DNA of 37,294 nt from a virus: IMG/VR virus record IMGVR_UViG_3300042479_001108, positions 1-37,294 of that record, one strand, 5' to 3'. Of the stretch, positions 7,385 to 36,513 are shown in pieces. Within the stretch, counting starts at the first letter, position 1; every line of letters begins with the position of its first letter. Under the pieces are notes generated by a model, which saw only the letters and a list, made by a program, of their open reading frames with translations, was not told the DNA's origin and ran no database searches. The translations under genes and the position numbers were made by a program.

Positions 7385-10300
7385 TTAAGGATGTGTTTTC
7401 TTATAGGCTTCGAAGTCAGCTTTTAATTCTTTAATGGCTTCAACCAATACACCTACCACGTTGGTATATCTGATACCCAGGTAACCGTTATCATCAGTAG
7501 AAACAATCTCAGGCAATACTTCTTGAACTTCCTGTGCGATCAAACCGATTGCCTTACCGTTGCCTTCTTTCCAGTCGAAGGTAACACCACGAAGGGCGTT
7601 AACTGTATCGAGTGCAGATGTAACAGTCTTAATATTCTTCTTTAATCTCTTATCAGAAGATGAATTAATATCTGCAGCTGTAACTTGACCTGAAGCAACA
7701 ATGTTACCCGTTACTCCAACACCACCGGCAACGATCAACGCACCTGTTGACGTGCTTGTAGAAGCAGTTTCATCACTAATGTTGAAAGGCTTGTTAGAAA
7801 CCCACTTAGTTCCGGTATGAGAATAGTTTAAAGATGCGCTTGCACCATCAACAGTAATACCAGCACCATCAGCAGCCGAGCTATCAGCAGCACCCTTGGC
7901 AACCGTAATATTCTTATCAGTAACTTCTAAGGTTGAAGAAGATACTGTTGTTGTTGTACCGCTGACTGTTAAGTTACCTGTAACTGTCAAGTTATTATTA
8001 ACAGTTGTGGTACCAGTAGCAGCTCCCATTGACAATGCAGTGGCTGCCTTAGCAAAATTAACCGTTGTGGCAGTAGTATTAACTAAGTCAAAAGAACTAC
8101 TACCAGTCGTCAAAGATGTAGTGATTGCAGGGCTTGTGCCGAACACTAATGCACCAGTACCAGTTTCATCCGATATAACACCGGCTAATTCACTAGAACT
8201 AGTTGCAGCAAAAGTACTTAACTTATCAGTAGATCGAGCAAAATTAACTGCTGCACCGCCCCCGGCTGCAGTTACTGTCAATGCTCCGCCTGTATCTTTA
8301 AGCTGTAAAGATCCTAGGAAAATAGTACTGTTAGACAAATACAGATCTTTAAACTGATTGGTCGGGCTACCCAGGCTTTGAATTAAATTACCTGAAGGGG
8401 TTAAGTTACCGACCGTAATATTCTGTCCAGTTAATGCAGTTGCAAGCATTACATTAGAGATTGCACCAGTTGATCCTCCAACTGACTCTATCAATGAGCT
8501 GATAACAGTACCGGAAGCCTGTTCAACCCACTGTGAACTTGTACCATCGTTGAAGTACAAATACGTATTACCATCAGCATCATCAATCCACAGATCACCA
8601 ATGTTAGGTGAGCCAGGAGCACTTGCAGACACTGAAACATTAGCAATATTGGTAAAGTTAAATACACCAGTAGCGTTGCTATAAGCACCTTTTGTACCTG
8701 TTATAGATAAGGCAGCTCTTGCATTAGCATCGGTATATGTACCAGATGCAGATATGATACCATTGGCAGCATCGTACGTAATACCAGTTCCGGCTGTTAA
8801 AGATTGCTTAGATATAACAATATTACCAACCATTCCTCCATGAATGGAGCATTGATAAACATAAGTACTACCGGCTAAAGAATCTGGTACTTTCCAAAAT
8901 AATTTGCCAGTAACTTTACCTTGAGCAGAAGAACCGGTAGTTACAGTTCCATCAGTTGCTACATGTGTTAAACCAGTATCGTAATTTGATCCTCCAGATG
9001 ATACTCTGATCATGAAAGGGTGACCGGTAACATTTAAATCAAATGATATAGTTTCCCCGGCAGTTACATAAATTGTAGGATTATTGCCAGAATATGAATC
9101 TAACAAGAATGCTGATGCTCCACTGTGAGAAACCGCTAGTTGTGTTACTGCTGGTATTTCTGCAAGAATAGCTCTTGAATTAGTAAAATATAAATTGGTT
9201 ACTTCAGCTACGTTAGCAGTTGTCAATACACCAGATGATGTAACGGCAGAAGCAAGTTGTGCATTAGATACAGCACCGGTTGCTCCACCAACAGAAGAAA
9301 CGCCTGATACAAGGGCTACGTTGGCGGCAGATGTAATTCTACCGAATTCATCAACGTTAATAACGGGAATATTCAACGCACTACCGTATGTAGTAGCAAT
9401 AACACCTGTCTTAGCTTCACCACTCAACAAGGTTGCAACGTTACCACCCAGACCAGATACACCAGTACTGATTGGCAATCCAGTTGCATTGGTAAGAGTA
9501 GCCGATGAAGGTGTACCAAGTGCTGGGGTTACCAACGTTGGGCTGTTACTAAATACTACATTACCAGAACCGGTTTCATCAGTAATAGCAAATGCGAGTT
9601 TAGCACTTGTTGGATCTGCTAAGAACGTTGCAACGTTAGCACCAAGACCGCTGACACCAGAACTAATTGGCAAACCAGTTGCATTGGTCAAAACGGCTGT
9701 TGAAGGAGTACCGAGATTAGGTGTTGTAAGTACTGGGCTTGTTGAGAATACAACGTTACCGGTACCTGTCTCATCAGAGATTAAAGTAGCAAGTTCAGCA
9801 GATGTGGTTGAAGCAAATTGCGCTAATGAGTTAGCAGTCGTTGCAAAACCAGTAGCAGCACCAACTTGACCGTTAACAGAAGTAACTTTAGCAGCAGTAA
9901 AAGCTGTACCAATCTCAGAACCATTCCATACACCAGTAGTAATAGTACCTAATGATGTAAGGTTAGAATTAACAACGTTAGGACCAAGGCCAGTTGCACT
10001 CAATACCTGGTTATTGTTTACTTTGTAAACCTTACCAGTAGCAAGATCAACATCTTGGCTAGAAGTAAATGCTGTAGTGGCGTGCACGTAGTTTAACGTT
10101 GCATTAGCACCATCGATTGTGATACCTGCACCATCGGCGGTTGCGCTATCAGCAGCGCCTTTGGCTAAAGTAATATTTTTATCTGCAACATTTAATGTTG
10201 TGGATGATACAGTTGTTGTAGTACCTTGAACAACCAAGTTACCAGCAATAACCATATTATTTAATATGTTAGTATTACCAGTAGCAGCACCAATGTTAAC

Positions 10301-19299: not shown

Positions 19300-19542
19300 T
19301 TATTTATCTGTCTTAGATTGACTGATTAAAGTACGAAGCATATCTTTAAGTTCACCAAGTTCTTGCTTCATACTAGACATTTCTTTTTCTAAGCTTTCAG
19401 TAGAATTAGCTGTCTTATGAGCCAGTGTTTTCTGATTAATATAGTTCTGTCTAGATACTTGATCTACCACTAATATAGCTTTAGAATTAGGATCCCTATA
19501 CAGAGTAGGGTGGTCCCTGACTTTTAAGACTTGTTTAATCAT
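19300..19542 (-). CDS. Small protein with C-terminal coiled coil, 80 residues
   Basis: N-terminal half VLKVRDHPTLYRDPNSKAIL with VVDQVSRQNYINQKTLAH is compact and basic; residues about 48-76 form a heptad helix (TESLEKEMSSMKQELGELKDML). It overlaps the stop of the preceding 612-residue gene by 4 bases (co-translation) and is followed by a fibre gene. Similar small proteins with an RDP-x-(T/S)-KAIL motif are remembered from marine T4-like phages, without known function. Possibly a tail or baseplate assembly adaptor. Confidence 0.75.
   Translation of the reverse strand: MIKQVLKVRDHPTLYRDPNSKAILVVDQVSRQNYINQKTLAHKTANSTESLEKEMSSMKQELGELKDMLRTLISQSKTDK
19301..19308 (-). promoter_or_regulatory. 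Possible weak late promoter (GATAAATA; second site AATAAATA at 19290-19297)
   Basis: Two one-mismatch versions of the late consensus in tandem before the 229-residue fibre (distances to ATG 40 and 29 bases). AT-rich chance matches are possible. Confidence 0.3.
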
Positions 19543-21405: not shown

Positions 21406-24400
21406 TTATGTTGTTTGTCCACGAAGACCGTCTGCTGCTCCAGCTGCAACCACTTTATTAGTTACAGGAGCCTCAATTACGGCCAGGGTGAGAGCTGCGG
21501 AGTAAGCTTCAACTGCTTTTTGTATTCCAGCTTCAGTTACAGGGAACGAACCATTTGCAACTCCCACATCCCAGAATGCTTTCATATCAGCAGTAACCCC
21601 TGGTCTTTCAGTTACGCCATTAACAGTGACTTGCGCTACAGCTGCAGTCACTGCTGCTTTTGTACCCTCGTAAACTGGAATAACTACAGCATCCCAATAC
21701 GGAACTCCTACAGCAGTTCTTACATCTGCAATAAATAAATTATTTGTACTACTATTTCTTACTTCAAGAATATTAGTTGCAGTACCGTAATCTTTAAGTA
21801 AAATACCGTTATCAAGTACTTTCGTTCCTGCAGTAGGGTTAGCTTGGCTGTAATCTACACCAGAATTAAAATCATAATTAGCTGCATTAGCACCTGTTCT
21901 ATACGTTGAAGTTGCAAGAGGAGCAGTTGCTATTTGAGTAGTAAAGGTAGCCTCTGTAACGTTTTGGTTATTAAGAGCAGTTTTATAAAAACCTTCGTAT
22001 TTTGCTCTATCTGCTATACTCAGAGTATCAACATTTACACCCTTAAGGTAGGCAGCTGCATACTCTGCAAATCCTATTGATGTGGTAGTCGAAGAACTAG
22101 TACTTCCTCCACTTCCACTTCCGCCTCCGGTATTTTCCCCTACTATAACAGCTGTACTACCTGGACTTGGGGTATAGGTTGCTGGGGGAATATAGGCAAC
22201 TCTTGGAGGCTCAACCTTTGATAGGGTACCGTTAGCCACGTATACAGCATCTGCAAAAGTTTCTTTATCTATACCATTTGTTTCTGAATCAGTCAATCTA
22301 AAATTAACTCTGCCGGCAGGTATTTTTAATCCTGAACTTTGAATGTCAAAATTAAATACACCTGATACTGTACCATTAGAATCAGTAATAATGTTAGACT
22401 GATTAAATTCGCCACTTACAAATGAAGCAACTACATTAGCAGTAGTATTTTGACTGTAACAAAGCGGGGTAACGTTATACTCATTAAAAAATGCAAATAA
22501 TTTAGTATTTGGTTTTAATTTGCTACCAGTAAATTTAATAGAAGCATTTCTTAAATACGGAAACACCACACTTGAGGTGCTACCTGAAACACTGGCACTT
22601 GTAATTACCGCTCCCCCATCAATTGCCTTCACCTTATCAGTATTAGTAGGAGAGTACCAGATTTGTTTCCAGGAATTCCAGATAGAACCGTATGTAGCTT
22701 CACCTACCGAATCTGGTATCAGAGTATCATACGTCCCTGTATCATCTTGATAAACAAGAGGCTTAACAGTTTGATCGTACCAAACATCACCTGGAGGATC
22801 TATAACCACGGATCCAGCAAAAGTAAAGTTATCAAAAGGATTTATACTTTCGGTACTACTTGCAAGTTCATTGGCAATATATTCCTCTTCGGAATACGGT
22901 AACATAGCTATTCGATTATTTTTTACTACATAACCACTAGCAGCGCGCCCAGATGTTGATAACTGTACTTCACTAAGTTTTAAGTTTACAGGTATAAAGG
23001 CTGGACGCAATTCTCCTGCTTCAAAATCCATAGATATATTATGATCTAAATTTCTAACATCACCTATACCGTGCCCTTGAAAAGATTCTACTACAAAACC
23101 ATTTTTAAATCTATCTAGTCCAAAACTATCTTTTACAGAAAAGACTGCTGTATCCAGTTCTAATAAAGAAAGAGTGGTATAGTACTCTAGATTTTTAATT
23201 CTATTTTCTAACTTACCAATATCCTTCATAGTATAGCGTCTTTGATCTACCGGATAGAAGGTAGAGTCATTGGTAATATCAAACCCGTACGCAGGATGCT
23301 CAATAACATAAAGAGACATAGCATCAGAGGGCGCCTGGGGCTCTACAGGATTAAGGCTACTACTGCCTTCCCGGTAAGTAATTAAACCATCACTGGTAAG
23401 AAAGATTTTATCTATTCTAGGTAGATAATAAGAGTAATCGGTTTGGAAGTCATTTGCATAATCTAAAAATTCATTCCTTACTGCGCCAGTATTTTTAAAA
23501 TTTACCCCATCATTTGAAATACGCGGTCTGAGATCTATAGAACTTCTAAGATCGTAAACTACTCCATTGTCATTAAACTTAGGAATATCTTCATAGTCGG
23601 GATAAGATTCAGCACTAAAATAATCTCCAGTACCATGGGTATAGTAATCAAAGTTAATTTTAATAGGGCCCGTAGGAACTGGTTTACCAGGCTTAAGTTT
23701 TATTTTAGATATACCATAGTAGGTAGAGGTTTGACCGGTTTCTAAACTATAGTAGTCTGAGATATCAGAAGAATTATCTTCACTGTAAGATGTACTAAAG
23801 GCATTAGCCGACATTCTTACATTAGATACCTCGTAAACATCAGCAACACCAAGAGAAATAACGGTTGCTTGACAATCGGTTCTGGTAGTAAAGGTAGCCG
23901 ATGAAGAGGTAGAAGTTTTTGCTTTTGCAGCGGGATCATTCTTAATAATAGTGGTATAAACTAATACGTCTTGATTAGTTAACCCGTAGTCAGAAAGATC
24001 AATAGATATGTTACGATTAGTAGGCGCATCGGTGAAAGTAATTTCATCTGATTCTATCTTATAAATTTTACCAGCCGTACCACCAGTAACAGCAACTGCA
24101 AAGTAATCCTGATCGGTTCTAGATGCAAAGGTAGAACCTACAGCGGTAGTTAAAGCTACAACGTTAGCGGTAAGGGTACCAAAAAATACTCTTCTTGTAC
24201 GAATGGTTATATCACTAAGTTCTTTAATAACGTCATTAGGCATCGGGAAGATATATGATGCTTTATCATTATCAACCAATACCGCTTCATCCCTTGTTAC
24301 ATTTACACCAGCAATAGTCGTAAGTGGATAATTTCTGTCTATAGTTAGAGCAGAATTAGTAGTGACTGCAGTAACTCGATATGAATTAGAAGTATCTGAA

Positions 24401-25938
24401 TTAAATTTAATATAATCACCGACCTCTAAGTCAGTGGTAAATACAGAATTAAGACCTACAACAGCGGTACTTCCATTTGTAAGAGTAGCCGTACCGGTAA
24501 CTAAAGTACTTGTAGATGGTACAATGTTTGCTGTAAAAGCGGTTGAAACATAACCAGTATCTGATACGCTTGCATGGTATAACTGTTTTACATCTCTTTC
24601 AAACGTATACCCGCTATTCATACTAATATCAAATAAGAAGGTATTAAAGGTGGAGGCAGCCAACATAGCGTTGCTTGAAGGAGATTCAAACCCTCTAACC
24701 TTTGCATTACCTACCAATGTACCTGCAGGAGAGCCAGGAGTAGCAGTATATTGATCATATAGATTTATATCTATTAAGTTGGAAGTAAAATTAGGAATAC
24801 CGAATGCATCTTTTACTTCTACGTAGTTACCAATAGGAGTTCTAACTACAGCATTAGTGACGTTGGCGGTATCCCTGGGTTTGCTAAAAGGTAAATATCT
24901 ATTAGATACTGTATTTACCTCGTATCCTTTTACATAACTTTTACCAGGACTTAAGACTGCTAAAGCAATTTGAACATTACCACCATCAGTAGCATTAAGA
25001 AATCCATCAGGATTATTTAATGATTTACGATGCTCAATAAATTTTAAATTAAATGGCTTAACAGTATAATCACCAGATTCGTCAAAAGTACGACGTGCAA
25101 GCTCGTCCTGCAAGACGCTATAACCTGGCTTATCGACAATGTCCACAAGGGAGCCATTTTCAATACGAAGCAACTCAATAAAATTATCAGATGTAGCAGA
25201 AGAAATAGAACGTTTATTTAAAATTAATTCAATTTTATATCTATCTGCACCTGGAGCAAAATAGTTAAATGTACCAATAGCGGGATCTAAAAGTGTTTCA
25301 TCATCATCGCTGTTAACAGTAGTTTCAGATACTTCTAATCCCACCCTGTAGTTAGAATTAGTAAGATACTTGTCCAGAATAATATTATTGGAAAATACTT
25401 TTACAAAATGGTCTTTAACAAAATATACACCATCGGTGATACTTGCCCCTAGGCACTTACCAGTTGAAGAAACGGTTGCGCTGTAGGTAGTACCAGTATC
25501 ATTGGTAACAATATCTTCAGCTGCACTGAATGCACCTGCAGTTCTACTGGCACCTGAGTCTAGATATTTTACAAAAATGGTCGGGGGATCTGTAGCAGTA
25601 CCTTCTTCAACATTTATTACCTGTGCTCTTACCCCAGACGTCTGTCCAATCATCTCTCTGTTAAGATAATTAGCAACCTCAATATCTTCTGAATTAAAAG
25701 TAGTAAGTAATTTTACAAAGTTTACATTCTTATCAAATTTAATGTTACCAGGTATAACTAATGAACCGGGCTTAAATACATGATTGCCAAATCTCGATAC
25801 TTGATTTTGAAGTATAGTTTGAAGTTGGTTTAATTCTCTTGATTGAACTGCCACCCCCGGTTTAAAGAGAATGCGGTGAAAGCCATCGGCTTCACTGTAA
25901 TCATCAAAGTACGGATCGGTGTTAAAATTAATCGCCAT
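21406..25938 (-). CDS. DUF4815-type baseplate protein with C-terminal extension, 1510 residues
   Basis: Starts INFNTDPYFDDYSEADGFHR with ILFKPGVAVQSRELNQLQTIL, the hallmark of the DUF4815 family of large virion proteins in marine T4-like phages. It occupies the T4 gp9/gp10 position (after gp8), so a baseplate wedge pin role is likely. The body is mostly beta; NREMIGQTSGVRAQVINVEEG (about 90-110) shows the same SG-x-A strand motif as the insert in gp13. A Gly/Ser linker (GGGSGSGGSTSSS, near residue 1270-1285) joins a C-terminal Ala-rich domain of about 220 residues (YAAAYLKGVNVDTLS to the end), which looks separate and is not recognised. Ribosome site AGG about 10 bases before the ATG. Confidence 0.82.
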   Translation of the reverse strand: MAINFNTDPYFDDYSEADGFHRILFKPGVAVQSRELNQLQTILQNQVSRFGNHVFKPGSLVIPGNIKFDKNVNFVKLLTTFNSEDIEVANYLNREMIGQTSGVRAQVINVEEGTATDPPTIFVKYLDSGASRTAGAFSAAEDIVTNDTGTTYSATVSSTGKCLGASITDGVYFVKDHFVKVFSNNIILDKYLTNSNYRVGLEVSETTVNSDDDETLLDPAIGTFNYFAPGADRYKIELILNKRSISSATSDNFIELLRIENGSLVDIVDKPGYSVLQDELARRTFDESGDYTVKPFNLKFIEHRKSLNNPDGFLNATDGGNVQIALAVLSPGKSYVKGYEVNTVSNRYLPFSKPRDTANVTNAVVRTPIGNYVEVKDAFGIPNFTSNLIDINLYDQYTATPGSPAGTLVGNAKVRGFESPSSNAMLAASTFNTFLFDISMNSGYTFERDVKQLYHASVSDTGYVSTAFTANIVPSTSTLVTGTATLTNGSTAVVGLNSVFTTDLEVGDYIKFNSDTSNSYRVTAVTTNSALTIDRNYPLTTIAGVNVTRDEAVLVDNDKASYIFPMPNDVIKELSDITIRTRRVFFGTLTANVVALTTAVGSTFASRTDQDYFAVAVTGGTAGKIYKIESDEITFTDAPTNRNISIDLSDYGLTNQDVLVYTTIIKNDPAAKAKTSTSSSATFTTRTDCQATVISLGVADVYEVSNVRMSANAFSTSYSEDNSSDISDYYSLETGQTSTYYGISKIKLKPGKPVPTGPIKINFDYYTHGTGDYFSAESYPDYEDIPKFNDNGVVYDLRSSIDLRPRISNDGVNFKNTGAVRNEFLDYANDFQTDYSYYLPRIDKIFLTSDGLITYREGSSSLNPVEPQAPSDAMSLYVIEHPAYGFDITNDSTFYPVDQRRYTMKDIGKLENRIKNLEYYTTLSLLELDTAVFSVKDSFGLDRFKNGFVVESFQGHGIGDVRNLDHNISMDFEAGELRPAFIPVNLKLSEVQLSTSGRAASGYVVKNNRIAMLPYSEEEYIANELASSTESINPFDNFTFAGSVVIDPPGDVWYDQTVKPLVYQDDTGTYDTLIPDSVGEATYGSIWNSWKQIWYSPTNTDKVKAIDGGAVITSASVSGSTSSVVFPYLRNASIKFTGSKLKPNTKLFAFFNEYNVTPLCYSQNTTANVVASFVSGEFNQSNIITDSNGTVSGVFNFDIQSSGLKIPAGRVNFRLTDSETNGIDKETFADAVYVANGTLSKVEPPRVAYIPPATYTPSPGSTAVIVGENTGGGSGSGGSTSSSTTTSIGFAEYAAAYLKGVNVDTLSIADRAKYEGFYKTALNNQNVTEATFTTQIATAPLATSTYRTGANAANYDFNSGVDYSQANPTAGTKVLDNGILLKDYGTATNILEVRNSSTNNLFIADVRTAVGVPYWDAVVIPVYEGTKAAVTAAVAQVTVNGVTERPGVTADMKAFWDVGVANGSFPVTEAGIQKAVEAYSAALTLAVIEAPVTNKVVAAGAADGLRGQTT

Positions 25939-25950
25939 CTCTTACCTATG

Positions 25951-28089
25951 TTATAATTTGAGTACTGTTCTAAGAGTAACTAATTGTTGTTCGCTGTAAC
26001 TTACCGCTGTTCTATTATCTATAAACAGCAAGTCACCGCTAAATTTATTTATATCGGGAGTTTTATTAATTACGGTCACTACATAATTAAGATTAGAAGT
26101 TTCATCAGTTAAAACATTACCTACTACTAATGCGTAATTATTTTTGTCTTGAAGTAATAATTGATTAGAAGAACTTGTAATCTCTACGACTTCGTAACTA
26201 CGCTTGGCTCCATTTATCGTGATAGTCAATATATCATCGCGAGCAAGCCCTGAAACAGTATCGGTAGTTACTAAATAGCATGCGCTCCCGGTAACGTTAG
26301 CATATGCTTGATCGTTTGTAAACTTATCTATATCTCTTATAATACCAAACTGTCTGTAATCATTCTGTACCAAGACACCATGATTCTTTTCATTATTTAT
26401 AGTAGATGTAAACATCAACGTATCTGCAAATAATTCTTTAACAGGATCACTTCCGTGACCGCCAGTTGGAGAAATAATAGCTGATACATTAGCGTTTGCA
26501 CCATTACCTGTTATGGTTACATTAGCAAACGTATACCCTACCCCTGGTGATTGCACGGTAATATAACTTATAGTATTATTGGTAAGTACCACATTTCCTG
26601 CAAACCCTGACCCGTCTCCTGTAACTACTACATTGGCGTAAGAATAACCACTACCTACATTGGCAATTCTAAAAGCATGAATACCTCCATCAATAGCTGA
26701 CAATTCAACCACCGTCTGTAAAGTATCTAGATCATCTACTGAAAGATTAGGAAAGGCATTTGCTCCACTACCGGTAGCGCTTGCAAAAGTTATTTCTAAA
26801 TGAGTATAACCATTACCGCGTTCTTCAATTACAACATCTTCTACTTGTCCAGCGGCATTAACAAACGGAGTTAAAACTGCACCAGTACCATCACCAATTA
26901 AAGAAATGGTAGTATTTAAATTTGAGGAATAATTAACGCCACCATCTTCAATTAGCACTCTTTCCAATTGCCCATTAACCAATACAGGTGTAAGAACTGC
27001 GCTGGTAGAGAAATTTAAATTAGCAGTAGCATTTGAAGTTGGTTGACTGCTACCGGTCGTTGCTATACTGATGGTGGTATTTGATCTTGCATCAGGTGAA
27101 TAACCATAGCCTTTATTAGTTAAAGTAACCCCTACTATTGAATTACTGGTACTACCATAAACAAGACTTGCAAATGCATTAGCCGTTGGCTGAAAGGCGC
27201 CAGTAGTTGCTATAGTTACAGTAGTATTATTTCTTACATTTGTGAAGTATCCAGCTCCCGTGCTGTATATACTTACATTACTAATATTATTAAATTCACT
27301 GTGCCCAGAATAACCAGAATTGTTTATTCTTATATTTGCAGATTTATATTTTGCTCCTGCATCATCTATCAATACCTTAATAAATTCACCAGATGTATTA
27401 AATACCGGTCTAATATTAGCAATTGAGTTGCCAGAACCACCAGTAAATTCACCAAGAACCGAAAGTGAAACCAAAGCATTACCGGTGTAGCCTGAACCGT
27501 TACTATCTATAGTTATACTACTTACTTCACCTCTAGAATAAAAAGCATTAGTTACTGCTCTCTGCACCGGCATAAAGGAAGCTGTAAGAAATCTATTCTG
27601 AGCCGATAGGGGGATAGTATACATATACTTCCAAACATACCCATCAGCTGTAGTGAGAGTTGTTACATCTTGCCCAGAAGGCTCAACTGTTGAAGCTGCT
27701 CCATTGTTATTAAATATGCACTTATATACTGCAAAGGTACTGGTCAGTACATAAAATTCAGATGTCTTTAAACTAGTTGCACCAGATTCGGAAGTAAAAG
27801 TTGAACTGTAATTACCATCATACTGATCATATACAGTACCTGATTCCCAATCATATCTAGGTACAACAAAAGATACGTCTCTTAAGTTTATTCTTTTAAT
27901 ACTTAAAATACCATTTCGCGTATATTGTTCGTAGTCCTGAGTCACCTCAGGTGTCTGGGGGGTAGCAGGTACAGCCCATTCTAAAATATTACCAATAAAA
28001 TAGTAATAGTTAGCTCTACGAGACAAAAACTCATTATAAACCGATTCCACCAATGAGCGGTGAATGGTATCCTTTAAAAGAAAAGACAT
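25951..28089 (-). CDS. 8: Baseplate wedge protein gp8, expanded
   Basis: 712 residues; T4 gp8 has 334. The first 180 residues match gp8: FIGNILEWA, a V-PRYDW-x-SGTVYDQYD segment (T4: IPRRDWGDTRYPDPY), VYKCIFNN, EPSGQDV and TADGYVWKYMYTIP (T4: GDGYVWEYLFEIP). The middle (about 195-540) is an insertion of repeated strand units with G-x-GY motifs (GSGYTGNALVSL, GAGYFTNVRNNTTVTI, KGYGYSPDARSNTTISI, GNGYTHLEITF). The C-terminal end (DTLMFTSTINNEKNHGVLVQND and RQFGIIRDI) resumes the gp8-like fold. Gene 28091-28531 ends one base before its ATG. The expansion is the odd feature. Confidence 0.86.
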   Translation of the reverse strand: MSFLLKDTIHRSLVESVYNEFLSRRANYYYFIGNILEWAVPATPQTPEVTQDYEQYTRNGILSIKRINLRDVSFVVPRYDWESGTVYDQYDGNYSSTFTSESGATSLKTSEFYVLTSTFAVYKCIFNNNGAASTVEPSGQDVTTLTTADGYVWKYMYTIPLSAQNRFLTASFMPVQRAVTNAFYSRGEVSSITIDSNGSGYTGNALVSLSVLGEFTGGSGNSIANIRPVFNTSGEFIKVLIDDAGAKYKSANIRINNSGYSGHSEFNNISNVSIYSTGAGYFTNVRNNTTVTIATTGAFQPTANAFASLVYGSTSNSIVGVTLTNKGYGYSPDARSNTTISIATTGSSQPTSNATANLNFSTSAVLTPVLVNGQLERVLIEDGGVNYSSNLNTTISLIGDGTGAVLTPFVNAAGQVEDVVIEERGNGYTHLEITFASATGSGANAFPNLSVDDLDTLQTVVELSAIDGGIHAFRIANVGSGYSYANVVVTGDGSGFAGNVVLTNNTISYITVQSPGVGYTFANVTITGNGANANVSAIISPTGGHGSDPVKELFADTLMFTSTINNEKNHGVLVQNDYRQFGIIRDIDKFTNDQAYANVTGSACYLVTTDTVSGLARDDILTITINGAKRSYEVVEITSSSNQLLLQDKNNYALVVGNVLTDETSNLNYVVTVINKTPDINKFSGDLLFIDNRTAVSYSEQQLVTLRTVLKL
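26046..26053 (-). promoter_or_regulatory. Possible internal late promoter in the 3' end of gp8
   Basis: Exact TATAAATA on the minus strand, 108 bases before the start of the DUF4815-type gene. It could supply extra transcript for this large gene, but it lies in coding sequence (DINKF) and may be chance. Confidence 0.4.
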
Positions 28090-28570: not shown

Positions 28571-30637
28571 TTAAAATGTAATCACTGGTGAACCAGCATA
28601 AATTTCATCAAAGTAATCTATTGCATAATCTACATTAATACCTGAACCCGAATCTGTAATAGAAACACTACTTATATTATTATCAATATTCTTACTAAAT
28701 ACTTGTGAGAGCTCTTCAGATAATGATAAGCTATCATTTACTAATGAACTTCCTGATATATCATTTAAATTAGATATCACATTTACATCATCTGAGAAAG
28801 CTGCTAGATAAAGCACAAGACCTAGGGATTCTGATACTGTTACAGTATCGTCTACAGGTTTATATACGTCTAAAGATATAAAATTATCGGATATGCTTAA
28901 GACATTTGCAAGGGGTTTTTGTAATTCAAATACTTTACTATCAAGAATATTAAATACACTGTTAAGTTGAGTAAATACATTTTTAGCAGAAACCACTTCT
29001 ACATTGGCACTAACATTCGCAATAGTAGTCAAGGCCCTATTTACAAACAAATTAGTACCAGCTTGATGAACTAGTTTTTTAACAGTATTATAAAAAACAC
29101 TTATATCAAGCTCAGATTCAACCTGATAAGCAAATGGCTGATACAGATTTTTATCTTGTAAACGTACATCTGGCTCAGATAAAAAGCCTTGAGTTGCAAT
29201 ATATTCACCGGGATATCGAGCTATGGCTCCTACATTAAACGTTATGATAGCATCAGAAGGACTAGATGTTCCACCAGCTGTTAAAGAAGTAGTTACTTGT
29301 GATGTCGTGGTGGTAGAAGATAATAAAACCCCTGTAAAATCAGAAGACGTAACATAATCTGCATCAAAATATCTGGTAGGGTCTGTATCAGGGTGAATTC
29401 TTACTAAATTAACGCTCTCTAGAAACCCCCCAGCAGTTGTAGTAAAGTATTTAGTAGATGACGCTACTCCTAAATCATTAGATAAAGTTATAGTAAAATT
29501 GCTGTTGTAATTATATCCAAAATTAATAAATTTTACTGTTTGAATTGATCCGTTAGCTCCAACTTTGGTAATTCTAACTAAAGTATCTTGGCCTCCAACG
29601 GCAAGGTTAAATATCTCCCCTACCCTAAATCCTGTGCCTCCATAACTAACTTGGTATGAATTAGTGGTTGGTTTTACAATACCAGTAAAAATGGTACTAG
29701 TTAAGTTTTTTACAAATACATCATCATCTATTTCAAAGGGAACTTCAACTAAACTCTTATAAAATATTTCATAAAGATTTGTAGCTAGAGTCTTTACTCT
29801 AACAATTTCCACTGTATAAGCAATATTATTTTTTACAAAATTTAAAAATCTATCTTGAAGATTTGTTACACTTCCTGAGGTTAATAGTACGCGTATAGAT
29901 GTACGGAAACTCCATTTTCCATCTGATGGTCTTAATACAAAATCATAAGGATGACTGGTAGTAACAACAGTATCATATAAAACTTTAAAAAGAGTTTCAA
30001 TTGAAAGAGTGCTTCCCTTTGCCTTGTATAACCCTTCTATTTTTTTAACTAAAAGTGATTTATTAACTTGAAGACTTACAGGTAGATCATTCGCATAATT
30101 TTTTAAAAAATAATTTACAAAACTAGATGTAGTTTTATCTATATCACTGTACTGTCTTGCATTTTGTACTAATTCAAGAGCACCTTGATCTTGTTCTAAA
30201 AATTTATAATAATACTTTAAGAATGCAACAAAGGTTGTATTATCAGTTCTAATAAATTCAGGTAACTGACTGCTTATTAATTCAGATACTCTGTCTTTTA
30301 TTCTTTCAGTACTCACAGTATTGGTACTAGGAGTGGTACTTATACTTAAGACTCCTTGCATGCTAGAATGAATTTGACAGATGTAGTATAAGGTAGAGGG
30401 GGCATCGTTTGGAACTGTAAAAGATATTGTTCCAACAGCAACCCCATTATTAGTAACCCCATCATTATATGCACTGCCGGTACCAGTTACAGCATTAGTC
30501 TTTATCCAAAAAGGATGACCAGTTGCATTAACGTTAAAGGTATAAGTATTCCCTCTAACTAAATTAAGAGTTGGATTACTGCTACCATCAATGCTGTAAG
30601 CTCCTGCGCCTACGTTAGTTACTGCAAAGGTGGTCAT
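28571..30637 (-). CDS. Baseplate protein at gp7 position with N-terminal cupredoxin-like domain
   Basis: 688 residues. Residues 1-105 form a cupredoxin-like domain: VNATGHPFWIK (H41), a long strand-loop region and YYICQIHSSMQG with C87, H90 and M93, the amicyanin/pseudoazurin spacing of a type-1 copper site. From about 110: KDRVSELISSQLPEFIRTDN, TFVAFLKYYYKFLEQD and later SFVNYFLKNYANDLP, a start shared by marine T4-like baseplate wedge proteins at the gp7 position. The rest is beta-rich (YGGTGFRVGEIFNL; GYNYNSNFTITL) with a helical C-terminus (SLSLSEELSQVF). T4 gp7 has 1032 residues and no cupredoxin. Gene order gp6-this-gp8 supports the wedge role; identity to gp7 is inferred from place. 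Confidence 0.77.
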   Translation of the reverse strand: MTTFAVTNVGAGAYSIDGSSNPTLNLVRGNTYTFNVNATGHPFWIKTNAVTGTGSAYNDGVTNNGVAVGTISFTVPNDAPSTLYYICQIHSSMQGVLSISTTPSTNTVSTERIKDRVSELISSQLPEFIRTDNTTFVAFLKYYYKFLEQDQGALELVQNARQYSDIDKTTSSFVNYFLKNYANDLPVSLQVNKSLLVKKIEGLYKAKGSTLSIETLFKVLYDTVVTTSHPYDFVLRPSDGKWSFRTSIRVLLTSGSVTNLQDRFLNFVKNNIAYTVEIVRVKTLATNLYEIFYKSLVEVPFEIDDDVFVKNLTSTIFTGIVKPTTNSYQVSYGGTGFRVGEIFNLAVGGQDTLVRITKVGANGSIQTVKFINFGYNYNSNFTITLSNDLGVASSTKYFTTTAGGFLESVNLVRIHPDTDPTRYFDADYVTSSDFTGVLLSSTTTTSQVTTSLTAGGTSSPSDAIITFNVGAIARYPGEYIATQGFLSEPDVRLQDKNLYQPFAYQVESELDISVFYNTVKKLVHQAGTNLFVNRALTTIANVSANVEVVSAKNVFTQLNSVFNILDSKVFELQKPLANVLSISDNFISLDVYKPVDDTVTVSESLGLVLYLAAFSDDVNVISNLNDISGSSLVNDSLSLSEELSQVFSKNIDNNISSVSITDSGSGINVDYAIDYFDEIYAGSPVITF

Positions 30638-30638
30638 A

Positions 30639-32486
30639 TTATACCGAAGAGGTTACAGTAATAGTAGTACCGGCAACTAAACCACCGGTCTTATTAGTTG
30701 TAGTATCATCTAGTAGTAAAATTTCATTTCTTGAAACAGTCAAATTATAATCAGCTTCCTGTATGCCTCCTGTAATCCGGATATCCGTTACCCCAGCAGG
30801 AATACCCGATGGGGTAATACCAGTTAAAGAGATAATTCCTGTTCCATAATCTACTGTACCGACATTTGAAGATACGATGGCATTATTAACAATGTTAACA
30901 AGTCTTAATACACCTGAACCGGTATTACTTGGGGGTGTGTCATTTGGTAGATCCGTAATTTTTACCAGAGTAGAGACCCCATTTACAGAGATAAAAAAGA
31001 AGCTTGAAAGTATAGACCCAGGCTTTAAAGAATTTCTAAACTTAACAGCAGTATCCCCGGTAAATAAATTAGTAGTATTTAAGACTGGTATAATTCTACG
31101 TTGTAACTTTAATGTAAGCAAAGCGCTGGTAATAGAGTTATTGGTACTGAGAATATCTTTTATTAAAGCTGAATGAATATAATTTTTATTAAACTTTTGT
31201 ACGTTGTTATTAAAGAAGTTAGTTATGGTAGTATTAACTTGGGCTCTTATTTGTTCAGAAGATAAGGTTGTAATAGATGAATTAAACTTTATATCAGCAG
31301 TAAGATTAACAAAGAAGAGAGAAGGATCAACAAAGACAGGGGTAACAGTAATACCTTGTTTAGACTTTAGAATATTATTTTTGATTGATTCTTTAGTAGC
31401 ATCAGAAATAGTAAAGGAGGAAAATGGTTTTAAGGATATAATTACTCTACCATAATAGGGAGGATCATTGTCCTCTCCACCCCATACCGAAACAGATTCT
31501 GCTCCTGCATAATTAGCTAAGATCAACGCCTCATAATCGGTAGCAGTAACTGCTCTATTCTTTGCTGCATTAACCCTGGGTGCATTAAACTTAATAGAGG
31601 TAATACTTTCAGCATCCGCACCACCTGTTGAATTACTGTTAACGGTAATTGCAATACTACTTGATCCTCCTATTGTGGTTCCGGCGGTAAAGGACTGAGT
31701 TATCGTACTTGATACATTAACTGCTGAACCTGTTGCAACCATGTATTGAATAGTAACAATATTACCTGCTACTAAACTCTTACCAATTATACCATCACCA
31801 AAATAAATTTGATATTTACCTTGAGGGTTTTGTTCAAGATAATAAACGGCAGATGTACTTCCTATACCAGTAATGTCTGTCGATAAGGTATAGGTGCTTG
31901 TAGTGGTATCTGAAGAAGATGTTTGAACACTAACTTTAATGGTAGTAGTGTCTACTGCTTCGTTAGGTATTTCATATTTTGCAGCCGGGGTAATATCAGA
32001 TACAACATAACTATAACTTAACAACGTACCTTCAGTAACATCTACGTCTGTAAATGTATACGTAGATCCGACTCTTGCAGCAGTTTTAGCTTCTGTAGTT
32101 AGAAACGTATATGGTACCCCATCTACAGTTGAAGTAAAGGGTGTGTACCGTTCCATTGTCAAAGACGCAGGCAAGTTAGATGGGTTAGTAACTACAATAT
32201 CTAAATTAGCAACCGAGCCCCTTGCTGATACCGGCGTATAACCTAGGTGCTTGGCAATAGAAACTGCAGAAGATCTCTTGACTGCAGAATCCAAAAACAT
32301 CTCATTTACTACCATGTTAGCAAGGTAGGCATTGTAATGGGTGTTGTAGGCAAGAACGTCTAAAAGAGTAGATAGACCGGAGCCCTCAAAATCGTAATCC
32401 GTAAACTCAGTTTGAGCGTTTAAGAACGTTTTTAAGTTAGTCTTGATTTGATCAAAGTCAAGTTCTGCTATTCTTAGATTAGACAT
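30639..32486 (-). CDS. 6: Baseplate wedge protein gp6
   Basis: 615 residues (T4 gp6: 660). gp6 forms the dimeric wedge core that clamps gp7 and, in the intact baseplate, rings the hub. Family features: N-terminus LRIAELDFDQIKTNLKTFLN, FEGSGLSTLLDVLAYNTHYNAYLANMVVNEMFLDSA (split: GSGLSTLLDVLAYNTHY and NMVVNEMFLDSA), SAVSIAKHLGYTP and, in the centre, NRAVTATDYEALIL with VSVWGGEDNDPP, typical of gp6/baseplate J-like proteins. It overlaps the gp25 stop by one base (TAATG) and is followed by the gp7-position gene with a one-base gap. Identification is firm. Confidence 0.93.
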   Translation of the reverse strand: MSNLRIAELDFDQIKTNLKTFLNAQTEFTDYDFEGSGLSTLLDVLAYNTHYNAYLANMVVNEMFLDSAVKRSSAVSIAKHLGYTPVSARGSVANLDIVVTNPSNLPASLTMERYTPFTSTVDGVPYTFLTTEAKTAARVGSTYTFTDVDVTEGTLLSYSYVVSDITPAAKYEIPNEAVDTTTIKVSVQTSSSDTTTSTYTLSTDITGIGSTSAVYYLEQNPQGKYQIYFGDGIIGKSLVAGNIVTIQYMVATGSAVNVSSTITQSFTAGTTIGGSSSIAITVNSNSTGGADAESITSIKFNAPRVNAAKNRAVTATDYEALILANYAGAESVSVWGGEDNDPPYYGRVIISLKPFSSFTISDATKESIKNNILKSKQGITVTPVFVDPSLFFVNLTADIKFNSSITTLSSEQIRAQVNTTITNFFNNNVQKFNKNYIHSALIKDILSTNNSITSALLTLKLQRRIIPVLNTTNLFTGDTAVKFRNSLKPGSILSSFFFISVNGVSTLVKITDLPNDTPPSNTGSGVLRLVNIVNNAIVSSNVGTVDYGTGIISLTGITPSGIPAGVTDIRITGGIQEADYNLTVSRNEILLLDDTTTNKTGGLVAGTTITVTSSV

Positions 32487-32881
32487 TATCTTACTCTTGT
32501 TATTAGTGTTGTTAAAGTGATGGGTCTATCAGAGTTGTTTAATCTAAAAATAATATCACATACAAGTTCATTATTATCTGCTTTTTCACTAAGTACAACT
32601 TCTAACACCGTAGCTCTTGGCTCAAACTTATTGATAGTATCAATAATAGTCTTTTTCATAACCTGTGCAGTCACAGGATTAAAGTTCTCAAATAAAAGAC
32701 CATGAATCTGACAACCAATTTCTGGATGAAAGGGACGCTCGTAGTGTCTCGTAGATATTAAATTTCTAAGAGATTGCTTAACAGCTTCTTCATCGTTCTT
32801 TCTCGTCACATCACCAGTTACAGGATGAGAAGAAAAAAGAAGATTAAAATCTGAATATTGTCTGGTATTTCGTGTAGCCAT
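32486..32881 (-). CDS. 25: Baseplate wedge protein gp25
   Basis: 131 residues, the same as T4 gp25 (132). gp25 is a lysozyme-fold relative that joins the wedge to the hub and primes sheath assembly (related to T6SS TssE). Family motifs: QYSDFNLLF at the start, SLRNLISTRHYERPFHPEIGC (T4: ITTRKGSRPFDPEFGCDL), LLFENFNPVTAQVMKKTI, FEPRATVLEV. The ATG has no Shine-Dalgarno sequence before it, and a perfect late promoter ends only 5 bases upstream. The gene is stop-start coupled to gp6. Confidence 0.95.
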   Translation of the reverse strand: MATRNTRQYSDFNLLFSSHPVTGDVTRKNDEEAVKQSLRNLISTRHYERPFHPEIGCQIHGLLFENFNPVTAQVMKKTIIDTINKFEPRATVLEVVLSEKADNNELVCDIIFRLNNSDRPITLTTLITRVR

Positions 32882-32894: not shown

Positions 32895-33140
32895 TTAGCC
32901 AGCGAACACGTCTGAGCTTCCCTCTCGGATACTATCGTTTCTGGTGTCTCTATCGCCTATTCTACAAACCCCCCTACCATTAGCAAAGACCGTAGAGCTT
33001 CCTCCTACCATTGTATCATTTCTTGTATCTCTATCTCCAATACGAACTACACCAAGCCCGTTTGCAAAAACGGTAGAACTACCATTATTCTTAGTGTCAT
33101 TTCTGGTGTCTTTATCACCAATTCTTGCAACCCCGGCCAT
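32895..33140 (-). CDS. 5.4: PAAR-like spike tip protein with three 27-residue repeats
   Basis: 81 residues made of three near-identical units, each V/A-RIGD-x-DTRNDT... followed by GSSTVFANG (about 5-31, 32-58 and 59-81). Position between the needle and gp25 is that of the T4 gp5.4 tip. PAAR tips sit on the trimeric needle end and have pseudo-threefold symmetry, which the three units would match. PAAR proteins usually bind zinc with three His and one Cys; this one has no histidine and a single Cys59, so the metal site is missing or different. Its ATG overlaps the needle gene stop (TAATG), and a late promoter follows. Confidence 0.88.
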   Translation of the reverse strand: MAGVARIGDKDTRNDTKNNGSSTVFANGLGVVRIGDRDTRNDTMVGGSSTVFANGRGVCRIGDRDTRNDSIREGSSDVFAG

Positions 33141-35428
33141 TATGCTAACTGTGTTAGACCCTGGGAATGAGTCTTATGATTAAAGAATGTTAATACCTGA
33201 CTTCTGTTCTTAACAGAATAGGAGACATGAATCCAAGGGTTTTTTGCATAGCTACAGTACTCTAATATCATTTGATCATATTTAAGAACTTTTGCAAGCT
33301 TGGTGGCTATTTCAAAATATTCTTTCTTTGTAATACCTTTGAATTGAATATCGACGCCTTGGCCAAGAGGATGCTGGGAGGTCTTAGCATTAGAGGCATT
33401 TCCTGGATCTCTAAATGCCGAGGTTACAAACATATTTGGATATATCTTCTTTACTGGTTCAAGTACGTTGAGTGCTATAGCCTGTAGATTAAAAACTATC
33501 TCACCGTAAGTAGCTTTTTCATGACCTCGGATAGGATCTCGGGTAACTGCTGCCTTACTTGATAACATCTCAACTGTAAAATTAGGCGATAGATTATAAT
33601 TGCCTGGTAGTTGAGTTACTGTTTTTAACTTAACATCTGGTTCTACAAAGTTTTGCTGTTCAGATTGAACCGTTGCACTATCTACAGCAGTCGGTGGTTC
33701 TGATAGATCAGCAGCATTAGCAAACCCTTCACTTATAATTAAATTCTTTTGACTATTAGAATCTTCAAGAGATTGAGTTTCTTCTTCTAATGCAATAGAA
33801 CGACTATCAGCTAAAGAAAGAACCAGAGGATCATTTTTATCATTATCAGAAATATCTTTTCTTCCAGCTATAACCCCAATATTAGATGACCCGGCAATAA
33901 TGCTTTCTTGAGATTCAGAAGCAGCACCTGCATTACCTGATTGTAAGTGGGTTTGACTACCGTCGAGATTAACGTTATTACTAGCTAACAAATTAATTGC
34001 TGCGCCTGAATCAATATTAGTATTATCTCCAGCTTTAATATTAATAGCTCCGGCTGCTTGCGTATATACAGTATCTGAAACAAAGTCATAAAGATTTGTT
34101 GCTTGAACTTTAATGTCAGCATTACTACGCATATGCATATTTTCTTTTGAATGCATATTAAAGGTAGTTGCTTTTTGATTCATAGTATAATAGGCTTCAA
34201 TATTAACATTGCCGCTTGCGATATTAAACTCTTCTACAGCTGAAAGATTAAATGTTCCCCCAGCCTGTGCAGTAATATCATTGTGACAGGTTATATTTGT
34301 ATCGCCCTCTACTTCGATGTTTGCGTCATTACCAACAAAGATATTACAAGCACCGTTAACAGAAATGTCTGCACGACCTGCGATAGATATTTTTCCATTA
34401 CGGTCAATAATTTCATATGATGATCCCTTTGTTCTTTTAACCATTGAGCCATTAGCATCAATTTCAATATACGTACCTGATCGGTGATAAATGTGAAGAC
34501 GTTCTGAACCCGGTGTATCATCAACTTCAATAATATGGCCAGATTCAGTTTGTGTTACTTTATTGTAGGGGTAAGCACCACGAAAGGCTGATTCAGGTTC
34601 ATCCCAGGCCTCACCACCAGGTAACTTAGCACCCTTCATTCTGTTACTATTTTTTTCTTGGACTATCGTACCTCTACTATCACCCTGTGCAAGTTTATTT
34701 GTTTCAGAAATACCAGCATACTCTTTTGTAGGATAGTTAGCATTAGGATCAGTAAACCCTTTATCCAACACTTCTAACTTTTCTTTATTTTCAGTTGAAT
34801 TAATATCGAATCGTTTGGCTTCTTCTAAGGCAGATGTGGCTGCACTAGAAACAAAAAGCTCATCTGTCTTTAATAAAGCTTCTTCTGGGGGTAAAGTACT
34901 GTAGAGTGTCTCAATATTATTAGTAGTTGTTTTAGGCTTTTGACCTCTACCAAATATAGAATCTGCAAACCCGCTGACTGCAGTAGTAATGGTCTTACCA
35001 ACTGCAGGCGTTATTCCCTGTACAAGACTAGCTGCTAAAGCATCAAAATTAATAATACCTAACTTGTCAGTTGGTAATGACAGTCTTAACTGGGACTGTA
35101 ATTTAGTTACAATTTTGTCTGTAGTTTGTGCAAGCAATTGCTGTTGAATAATACCATCTATATTATTACTGATAGTGATAGGGCTGTTATTACTATTAGT
35201 AATGTCAACAGGATTAATAGGCCCAATAATATTCTTAGGTATATCAGTTAACTGTTTATTAGATGCCTGGGTGACTTGCTTAACAATATCGACAGCCCCA
35301 ACTTCTGCAACCCTTGAGATTACCGCTCTCAAAATTGGATTAGGAATATTAAGGTTGAGTGCAATTATCTTATTAAAGATATTGTTCTCAAGTACCCCTT
35401 GAATTTGTTTTGTAATTAACGGATCCAT
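33140..35428 (-). CDS. Gp5-type beta-helix needle fused to an M15-like peptidase
   Basis: 762 residues. About 1-170: helical, hydrophobic N-terminus of unclear role. About 290-495: VgrG/gp5-like triple-stranded beta-helix, opening SGHIIEVDDTPGSERLHIYHR-like (motif at 296-316) and running through many N-I-x-V/NIEVEGDTNI repeats, forming the needle. About 610-745: D-Ala-D-Ala carboxypeptidase M15-type domain with zinc ligands H686 and D693 (SQHPLGQGVDIQ) and H734 (PWIHVSY), preceded by SAFRDP. T4 keeps OB, lysozyme and helix in one gp5 chain; here the needle is separate and carries a second wall-cutting activity. Its ATG overlaps the gp5 stop, so the two should be made in equal amounts. Confidence 0.88.
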   Translation of the reverse strand: MDPLITKQIQGVLENNIFNKIIALNLNIPNPILRAVISRVAEVGAVDIVKQVTQASNKQLTDIPKNIIGPINPVDITNSNNSPITISNNIDGIIQQQLLAQTTDKIVTKLQSQLRLSLPTDKLGIINFDALAASLVQGITPAVGKTITTAVSGFADSIFGRGQKPKTTTNNIETLYSTLPPEEALLKTDELFVSSAATSALEEAKRFDINSTENKEKLEVLDKGFTDPNANYPTKEYAGISETNKLAQGDSRGTIVQEKNSNRMKGAKLPGGEAWDEPESAFRGAYPYNKVTQTESGHIIEVDDTPGSERLHIYHRSGTYIEIDANGSMVKRTKGSSYEIIDRNGKISIAGRADISVNGACNIFVGNDANIEVEGDTNITCHNDITAQAGGTFNLSAVEEFNIASGNVNIEAYYTMNQKATTFNMHSKENMHMRSNADIKVQATNLYDFVSDTVYTQAAGAINIKAGDNTNIDSGAAINLLASNNVNLDGSQTHLQSGNAGAASESQESIIAGSSNIGVIAGRKDISDNDKNDPLVLSLADSRSIALEEETQSLEDSNSQKNLIISEGFANAADLSEPPTAVDSATVQSEQQNFVEPDVKLKTVTQLPGNYNLSPNFTVEMLSSKAAVTRDPIRGHEKATYGEIVFNLQAIALNVLEPVKKIYPNMFVTSAFRDPGNASNAKTSQHPLGQGVDIQFKGITKKEYFEIATKLAKVLKYDQMILEYCSYAKNPWIHVSYSVKNRSQVLTFFNHKTHSQGLTQLA

Positions 35429-36513
35429 TATTTAATTAAATTTAGTAATGCTTGTTTTTCGGATTGATAACGAGATTTAACACCGGCTTGAATGGACGCT
35501 GAACTTGACTTAAACAAGGTAGCAACATTATTAATTTTCCATTCACTCACTAAGGTTACAATATCTTTATCTGTTAATGTACTCTTATCTCTTAACGCTT
35601 CTGTAAATGCTCTTGTATTTGCAGGACCAAATTGTACTGCTCCAGACCAAATTAGATCTTGTACAGCTGGTCCGTACTTGGTCATATCTAGACCTTGACG
35701 CTGTAAGTTAGCCAATGCAACATCGTAGTATTTTTTCTGAATATAATCGTGTTGTTCTTTTTTAAAGTCTGCAGCATTTGTAGTTGCAATCTCTTTCCAT
35801 TTAGCATCAAAGGCAGCCGTGGCAGGTTCTAACCCTGCGAATTTATCTTTAAACTTAGAGTTGTTTAAAAACTGAATAACAGGTGAGTTTTTAGCTGATG
35901 GTCTTGCTTTACCTGTCGACATAACTGCTGGTAAGAAAGATGCAAGTTGATAGGTACCGTAAGATGCACCACCTAGATCGCCACCTGCGCCTCCATTGTA
36001 CGCATTAATCGTACCTGGACCCTTGCCACCGGATTCATATTTTTCAGATGTTTGACCAAGCTCCCAACCTTCAACAGTTGGTGTACCGACCTTAACTGGC
36101 TCACCTTGACCGTCAACAACTACATTACCTGAACCGTCTTTAAGTACACCATCACTTGGATTAGATACTTGAGGTTTTTCTTCTTGTACCTTAAATGCTT
36201 TCTTAGCTGCCTTGGTAGCAATAGTACCAAAGATGGCAGGTTGCTGCATGTCCTCACCATCAAGAAAGAAACCAATAACCCAGGTACCTTCAACAGGACC
36301 TAGAGGCGAAGAACCAATACCTGAAATTGCTGCTGAGGTAATTGGTTGTATAGGTGTTGCCCATGGCAGATCTTTGGTAGGTAATATTTCCTTACTATCG
36401 GTATGATACCCGTAAATACGTACTCTACATCTTCCCATTTTTTCAGGGTCCATGCGATCTTCTACCACCCCAATCCACCAATTAAAACCATCTCTGTTAA
36501 AAATTCTTTGCAT
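35428..36513 (-). CDS. 5: Baseplate hub gp5: OB-fold plus lysozyme-like domain
   Basis: 361 residues (T4 gp5: 575). About 1-105 is the gp5 OB-fold: WWIGVVEDRMDPEKMGRCRV, DLPWATPIQPITSAAISGIG and GPVEGTWVIGFFLDGED, closely like T4. A linker with DGSGNVVVDGQG follows. From about 150 is a wall hydrolase domain that is not the T4 lysozyme type: SEKYESGGKGPGT with E160 as the likely acid, GGASYGTYQLAS, and later TKYGPAVQDLIWSGAVQFG. It resembles the muramidase-like module of VgrG-type spikes. The needle is missing from this chain and sits in the next gene. The N-terminus follows the hub gene by two bases. Confidence 0.92.
   Translation of the reverse strand: MQRIFNRDGFNWWIGVVEDRMDPEKMGRCRVRIYGYHTDSKEILPTKDLPWATPIQPITSAAISGIGSSPLGPVEGTWVIGFFLDGEDMQQPAIFGTIATKAAKKAFKVQEEKPQVSNPSDGVLKDGSGNVVVDGQGEPVKVGTPTVEGWELGQTSEKYESGGKGPGTINAYNGGAGGDLGGASYGTYQLASFLPAVMSTGKARPSAKNSPVIQFLNNSKFKDKFAGLEPATAAFDAKWKEIATTNAADFKKEQHDYIQKKYYDVALANLQRQGLDMTKYGPAVQDLIWSGAVQFGPANTRAFTEALRDKSTLTDKDIVTLVSEWKINNVATLFKSSSASIQAGVKSRYQSEKQALLNLIK

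Follow-up and report, generated by a model that had tools for sequence, protein, structure and literature searches.

Introduction

What is a domain that resembles a blue copper protein, the textbook electron carrier of cells, doing at the start of a phage baseplate protein? The question arises from an ORF of 688 amino acids (28571-30637, minus strand) in a virus record of 37,294 bases (G000), which is analyzed here at its full length as the window and holds 30 main ORFs. An earlier note on this DNA had read a cupredoxin-like domain at the N-terminus of the protein, which it placed at the gp7 position of the baseplate, and another of the same kind in a fiber protein. Cupredoxins as such, the plastocyanin (petE) that is encoded by cyanophages (PMC3037559) and metal sites on phage fibers are already known. 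We argue that residues 1-100 are probably a copper-binding accessory module, a cupredoxin with a mononuclear type 1 site, carried by a gp7-like protein. The features on which the argument is built are collected in Table 1.

Table 1. Features of the window discussed in the text, with positions, strand and basis.
Feature	Position	Strand	Basis or remark
Cupredoxin domain (predicted), residues 1-100 of the gp7-position protein	30338..30637	-	AF2, Foldseek, alignment A1
H41 codon, predicted copper ligand 1 (GHPF; ATGHPF)	30515..30517	-	His in 98% of 182 unique copies
P42 codon, near-invariant, after the first ligand His	30512..30514	-	Pro in 99%; Asn54 in amicyanin
C87 codon, predicted copper ligand 2	30377..30379	-	Sole Cys of the 688-aa protein
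H90 codon, predicted copper ligand 3	30368..30370	-	Conservation
M93 codon, predicted axial ligand	30359..30361	-	Conservation
Linker, residues 101-112	30302..30337	-	Length and sequence vary among relatives
gp7-like baseplate wedge body	28571..30301	-	Residue 113 to stop; phrog_17744 and phrog_2885, baseplate wedge subunit
gp6 homologue, directly upstream of the 688-aa ORF	30639..32486	-	phrog_219, E 1.2e-157
gp25-like baseplate wedge subunit	32486..32881	-	phrog_261, E 5e-45
gp8-like baseplate wedge subunit	25951..28089	-	phrog_438, E 1.7e-106
Second, divergent cupredoxin domain (predicted) in fiber ORF 7385-11698	8813..9136	-	Same ligand set; E 8.6e-13 to the gp7 domain

The Carrier Protein

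On the minus strand of the window, the genes run in the order hub/lysozyme, gp25, gp6, the 688-aa ORF, an ORF of 146 aa and gp8, the last of which also matches the Pfam model Phage-Gp8 with an E-value (1.1e-4) that falls short of the cut-off. The body of the 688-aa protein matches a protein of Sinorhizobium phage phiM12 annotated as similar to PHA02579. This homologue sits between the gp6 and gp8 genes of phiM12, where the gene upstream of gp6 is annotated as gp25, and some other relatives of the protein consist of the gp7-like body alone. The gene order and the phiM12 match both agree with the position proposed before. By its position and its annotated homologues, the carrier is a T4 gp7-like baseplate wedge protein; T4 gp7 itself gave no direct similarity.

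Two pairs of ORFs in the window look like divided genes. The adjacent ORFs 33140-35428 and 35428-36513 each cover another portion of the hub/lysozyme family phrog_430, which gives the impression of a split gp5-like protein, and the adjacent ORFs 21406-25938 and 19539-21377 correspond to the N- and C-terminal parts of phrog_358, resembling one large protein in two pieces.

Predicted Fold and Candidate Copper Ligands

The domain was modeled with AlphaFold2 from an alignment of 55 family members (A1), giving a beta-sandwich of eight strands with a pLDDT of 98.4 and a pTM of 0.90. The predicted fold shows the Greek-key beta-sandwich of 7-8 strands by which a cupredoxin is recognized, and a Foldseek search of the PDB with this model listed 50 matches, all 50 of which are copper proteins, at moderate TM-scores of about 0.5-0.67. 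The best among those listed are rusticyanin (E 8.6e-6) and AcoP (2.1e-5), together with copper nitrite reductase, plastocyanin, auracyanin, multicopper oxidases and amicyanin. The earlier note had staked its reading on structure prediction returning a barrel of this kind, and on this point the model bears it out. A full-length model of the gp7-position protein (from 11 relatives) was poor (pLDDT 43), so neither the placement of the domain in the baseplate nor the fold search was taken from it.

Sequence searches point in the same direction with less force. Searched against PDB sequences, the family profile matches copper nitrite reductases, azurin and plastocyanin, of which the best match alone is significant (E 4.9e-4), and it aligns C87, H90 and M93 with the Cys-His-Met loop of these proteins, while phmmer with the single domain returned unrelated weak matches only. 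The NCBIfam amicyanin model TIGR02657, the one that most members match, is hit weakly by 15 of the 55 (best E 0.0095); for Pfam Copper-bind, the plastocyanin/azurin model, the hits number 10 and are likewise weak (best E 0.0013). No Pfam or NCBIfam model, Copper-bind included, picks up the window domain itself, so automatic annotation would miss it. Membership in the plastocyanins was rejected on the missing Copper-bind match, and membership in the amicyanins on the lack of any match to TIGR02657 at E <= 1.

Two other groups of look-alikes were seen on the way. In A1, the weak Pfam match that occurs most often is to PF25489, a plant At5g54830-like domain (15 of 55, best E 6.7e-5) that could be distantly related in eukaryotes. 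Among BFVD models, the domain fold matches A0A481Z6J5 and A0A481Z7Q7 (Pithovirus LCPAC302/304) and A0A481YVH3 (Marseillevirus LCMAC201) with E 3.6e-8 to 3.1e-7; these are short, stand-alone, cupredoxin-like 'beta-sandwich proteins' of 124-169 aa.

The putative type 1 site would consist of H41, C87, H90 and the axial M93, which stand in the translation exactly where they had first been read, the His within ATGHPF. Their order is His...Cys-xn-His-xn-Met with the last three in one C-terminal loop, as expected of such a site. Amicyanin binds copper through His53, Cys92, His95 and Met98 (PMC12723479), an identical ligand order and spacing, and the loop of the C-x2-H-x2-M domain therefore has exactly the length found in amicyanin. 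Directly after the first ligand His comes a residue that tunes the potential, Asn54 in amicyanin and Ser86 in rusticyanin (PMC12723479). Here it is the near-invariant Pro42, which marks the family as a distinct subfamily on its own branch. A His-Pro pair at a type 1 site is known from multicopper oxidases.

The minus-strand fiber ORF of the window carries GHPF at residue 892 and CSIHGGM at residue 950, so that the GHPF segment and the C-x2-H-x2-M spacing are indeed common to both translations. The alignment of the fiber insert with the gp7 domain is beyond chance (40% identity over 100 residues; 39% in A1), in keeping with the view that fiber and baseplate bear the same kind of domain. The single Cys of the fiber protein is the putative copper ligand, and the motifs C-x2-H-x2-M, C-x2-H-x4-M and C-x4-H-x4-M occur in no other protein among the 30 main ORFs. 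For the fiber insert, 132 related viral stretches were found, and a close relative of the window phage also has both domains (L005 and L084 on one contig). In a domain tree of 98 columns, whose deep forks are poorly supported, the gp7 domain groups with the gp7 domain of locus L009 and the fiber inserts make up a supported branch of their own. On these separate branches and the 39% identity, the idea that the fiber insert was recently duplicated into gp7 within the genome was rejected. By alignment and tree, the two domains are distant relatives from separate lineages.

Occurrence in Phages and Bacteria

The domain is not peculiar to the window phage. A tblastn search with it matched 361 phage records. 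Nearly all of these are aquatic, and phages of Synechococcus and Prochlorococcus (cyanophages) make up most of them. The earlier note had also held that T4 gp7 has no such domain, which fits this search: none of the 361 records is from an Escherichia phage, although 627 Escherichia phage records have a relative of gp6. Its commonest phage location is the C-terminus of gp9, where Kyanoviridae isolates such as P-SSM4, Syn33, S-RIM8 and ACG-2014b carry it with the ligands kept; the N-terminal start of P-SSM4 gp9 is the Pfam domain T4_gp9_10_N. Other phage carriers include fibers, one of them from a pelagiphage, an S8 protease-like protein and, in an actinobacterial phage, a protein with a YHYH domain. 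Every one of the 55 A1 members matches phrog_677. As judged by homology, aquatic phages commonly have the module, and it is present on gp9 of many cultured cyanophages. The gp9 version belongs to the same family (PHROG 677) and differs in being C-terminal on gp9, whereas the window domain is N-terminal on gp7.

In P-SSM4, the gene after gp9 (L214:2747-5234) and its equivalents in L222, L223 and L226 contain further divergent cupredoxin-like stretches, of which one has all the ligands (HPM ... YYYCGNHRYM) and one lacks them. The virions of these phages may hold more than one kind of cupredoxin-like copy.

In cells, the relatives are for the most part secreted-looking proteins that belong to marine bacteria; in Flavobacteriaceae, for instance, the domain lies C-terminal to Lipoprotein_15 repeats. 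In OCS116, Rhodobiaceae, the PS1 clade and related records (L164, L165, L167, L168, L174, L176-L181, L185), a conserved protein of about 430 aa has two tandem copies that differ in type, first HPL ... YYYCLFHxGM and then GHPFWIK ... YYxCQxHxxM.

This distribution suggests a swappable surface module, one family fused to several exterior tail proteins of aquatic phages, and it bears on two alternative roles. A redox function would have the domain exchange electrons with a partner at the surface or protect the particle from oxidants. The structural relatives, which are all redox proteins among the 50 PDB matches listed, and the tuning of the potential by residues near the first His (PMC12723479) speak for it, but the window encodes no adjacent partner protein, and movement of the module among unrelated carriers is not what a single fixed redox partner would lead one to expect; we regard this role as unlikely.

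Equally unlikely is a metal lure, in which bound copper would let the particle engage copper-handling receptors on the host surface. Type 1 copper sites are buried and hold their copper tightly, which would make a poor lure, and no link to a host copper receptor was found, even though the carriers are tail and fiber proteins. The idea would be a copper version of the iron Trojan horse hypothesis for tail fibers, which has a precedent in the iron held by HxH motifs of T4 gp37 and further tail fibers (PMC11705849). That site resembles the one predicted here in being a metal site on the tail exterior and differs in placing iron between fiber chains through pairs of His, whereas the phage module would be a folded copper domain.

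Gain and Loss at the gp7 Position

At the gp7 position, the domain comes and goes between close relatives. Among loci with a closely related body, it is present in L001-L006, L009, L016 and L212 and absent from L202, L203 and L207-L211, while the gp6 of the tested loci, domain-bearing or domain-less, is 82-94% identical to that of the window. In the domain-less phages, gp6 is near-identical, the gp7 body is 75-87% identical, and the protein opens with MATTRINEKVS, or with a sequence close to it, immediately past the gp6 stop. A tree of the body (10 rows) needs three or four changes of state over its bootstrap trees, and none of them allows a single change. Between L212 and the window, body residues 113-346 are 92% identical and the domain is 77% identical, so that, on these comparisons, domain and body either differ in evolutionary rate or have partly separate histories. 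The pattern identifies the domain as an optional, mobile N-terminal module at gp7.

T4 gp7 and gp9 are parts of the baseplate wedge and fiber socket. The presence of the domain on proteins of both positions might point to a role in assembly, in which it would help to join the wedge to a neighboring baseplate protein. The close relatives just described lack it at gp7 and therefore show that a wedge can be assembled without it, and the domain-less L209 has no copy anywhere on its contig, a fragment of 37 kb; an assembly role thus appears quite improbable. What the carriers have in common is exposure on tails or fibers and optional presence, which would suit a surface module for docking more than a component used in assembly.

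Conservation of the Predicted Site

The conservation of the ligands was followed in 182 unique copies, taken both from viruses (contigs and phage isolates) and from cellular genomes. All four (His, Cys, His and Met) are kept in 178 of them, a count that is biased in that the ligand motif formed part of the patterns by which some of the homologues were collected. The 19 isolate copies, whose loci came from whole-domain tblastn with no motif used, all keep His-Cys-His. The four ligand columns, P42 and Y85 are the six most conserved columns, and the next one drops to 93%. Four copies are exceptions: two (QSQ and YSF) lack both His and the Cys and retain the remainder of the domain, one has Asn in place of the first His, and one is missing the Met alone. 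The joint loss of His-Cys-His in the two copies argues for selection on metal binding beyond the fold. Between the window and L005, dN/dS is about 0.03 in the domain and 0.07-0.16 in the body, by which measure the domain is under purifying selection that is stronger than in the body.

The ligand Cys is kept in phage carriers that are otherwise poor in this residue (2.24 Cys per 1000 residues outside the cupredoxin domain). Among 152 unique viral carrier ORFs of at least 300 aa, 79 have no Cys outside the domain, the ligand Cys being the only one.

Ig-like beta-sandwich decorations are frequent on phage tails, and the domain might likewise be a metal-free decoration or spacer whose ligands are retained for folding only, as the two copies that persist without all three equatorial ligands could suggest, but the ligand columns outrank nearly all core positions, their losses are joint rather than single and the Cys survives in Cys-poor carriers, which makes this reading very unlikely.

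Taken together, the near-invariance of the ligands, their joint loss and the low dN/dS speak for a metal site under selection, and we consider it quite probable that the domain binds metal. The moderate TM-scores, the lack of any curated model that recognizes the window domain and Pro42 in the place of Asn or Ser weigh against a copper-binding module. The putative clustering of H41, C87, H90 and M93 into one site is supported indirectly, by the fold, the profile alignments, the near-invariance and the joint ligand loss.

A Proposed Copper Module on the Tail Exterior

If the domain is a type 1 copper module, its life cycle might run as follows. The cytoplasm, where virions are assembled, has little free copper. 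For this reason, the apo-domain would probably fold in the host cytoplasm and acquire copper from its surroundings once the cell has lysed. With the metal in place, it would then act on the tail exterior during host contact, most likely as a metal-stabilized docking domain for a partner on the cell surface; docking, the role that we favor, is put forward tentatively.

Compared with known systems, the module stands apart mainly by its context. Amicyanin is a free redox protein with methylamine dehydrogenase as its partner and has Asn after the first His, whereas the phage domain is part of a virion protein and its family has Pro. Rusticyanin and AcoP, the best fold matches among those listed in the PDB, are acid-stable electron carriers of 150 residues and not virion proteins, with 17-24% identity to the domain; rusticyanin has Ser next to the first His, where the phage domain has Pro42. 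The petE product is likewise a cupredoxin encoded by cyanophages, but it comes from a separate photosynthesis gene, and capture of petE was rejected as an origin, the nearest relatives of the domain being other virion domains. In the open-licence literature searched, no description of a cupredoxin in a virion protein was found. The PHROGs already contain sequences of the domain under no copper-domain name (phrog_677), and the same holds for the gp9 records examined.

The copper reading is directly testable on cultured phages, as gp9 of P-SSM4, Syn33 and S-RIM8 bears the domain. If it is true, copper would join the metals that virions carry, and blue copper proteins, with their copper ligands strongly selected, would serve as swappable tail parts. 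It is conceivable, though somewhat less likely than not, that tailed phages of aquatic bacteria, among them many cultured marine T4-like cyanophages, carry exchangeable type 1 copper centers on the exterior of their tails, several per particle, and use the metal in host contact; virions would then have a kind of metalloprotein function that they are not known to have. Copper proteins as tail parts would suggest metal-dependent steps in the infection of abundant aquatic bacteria, and some of the bound copper in water might then reside in phage particles.
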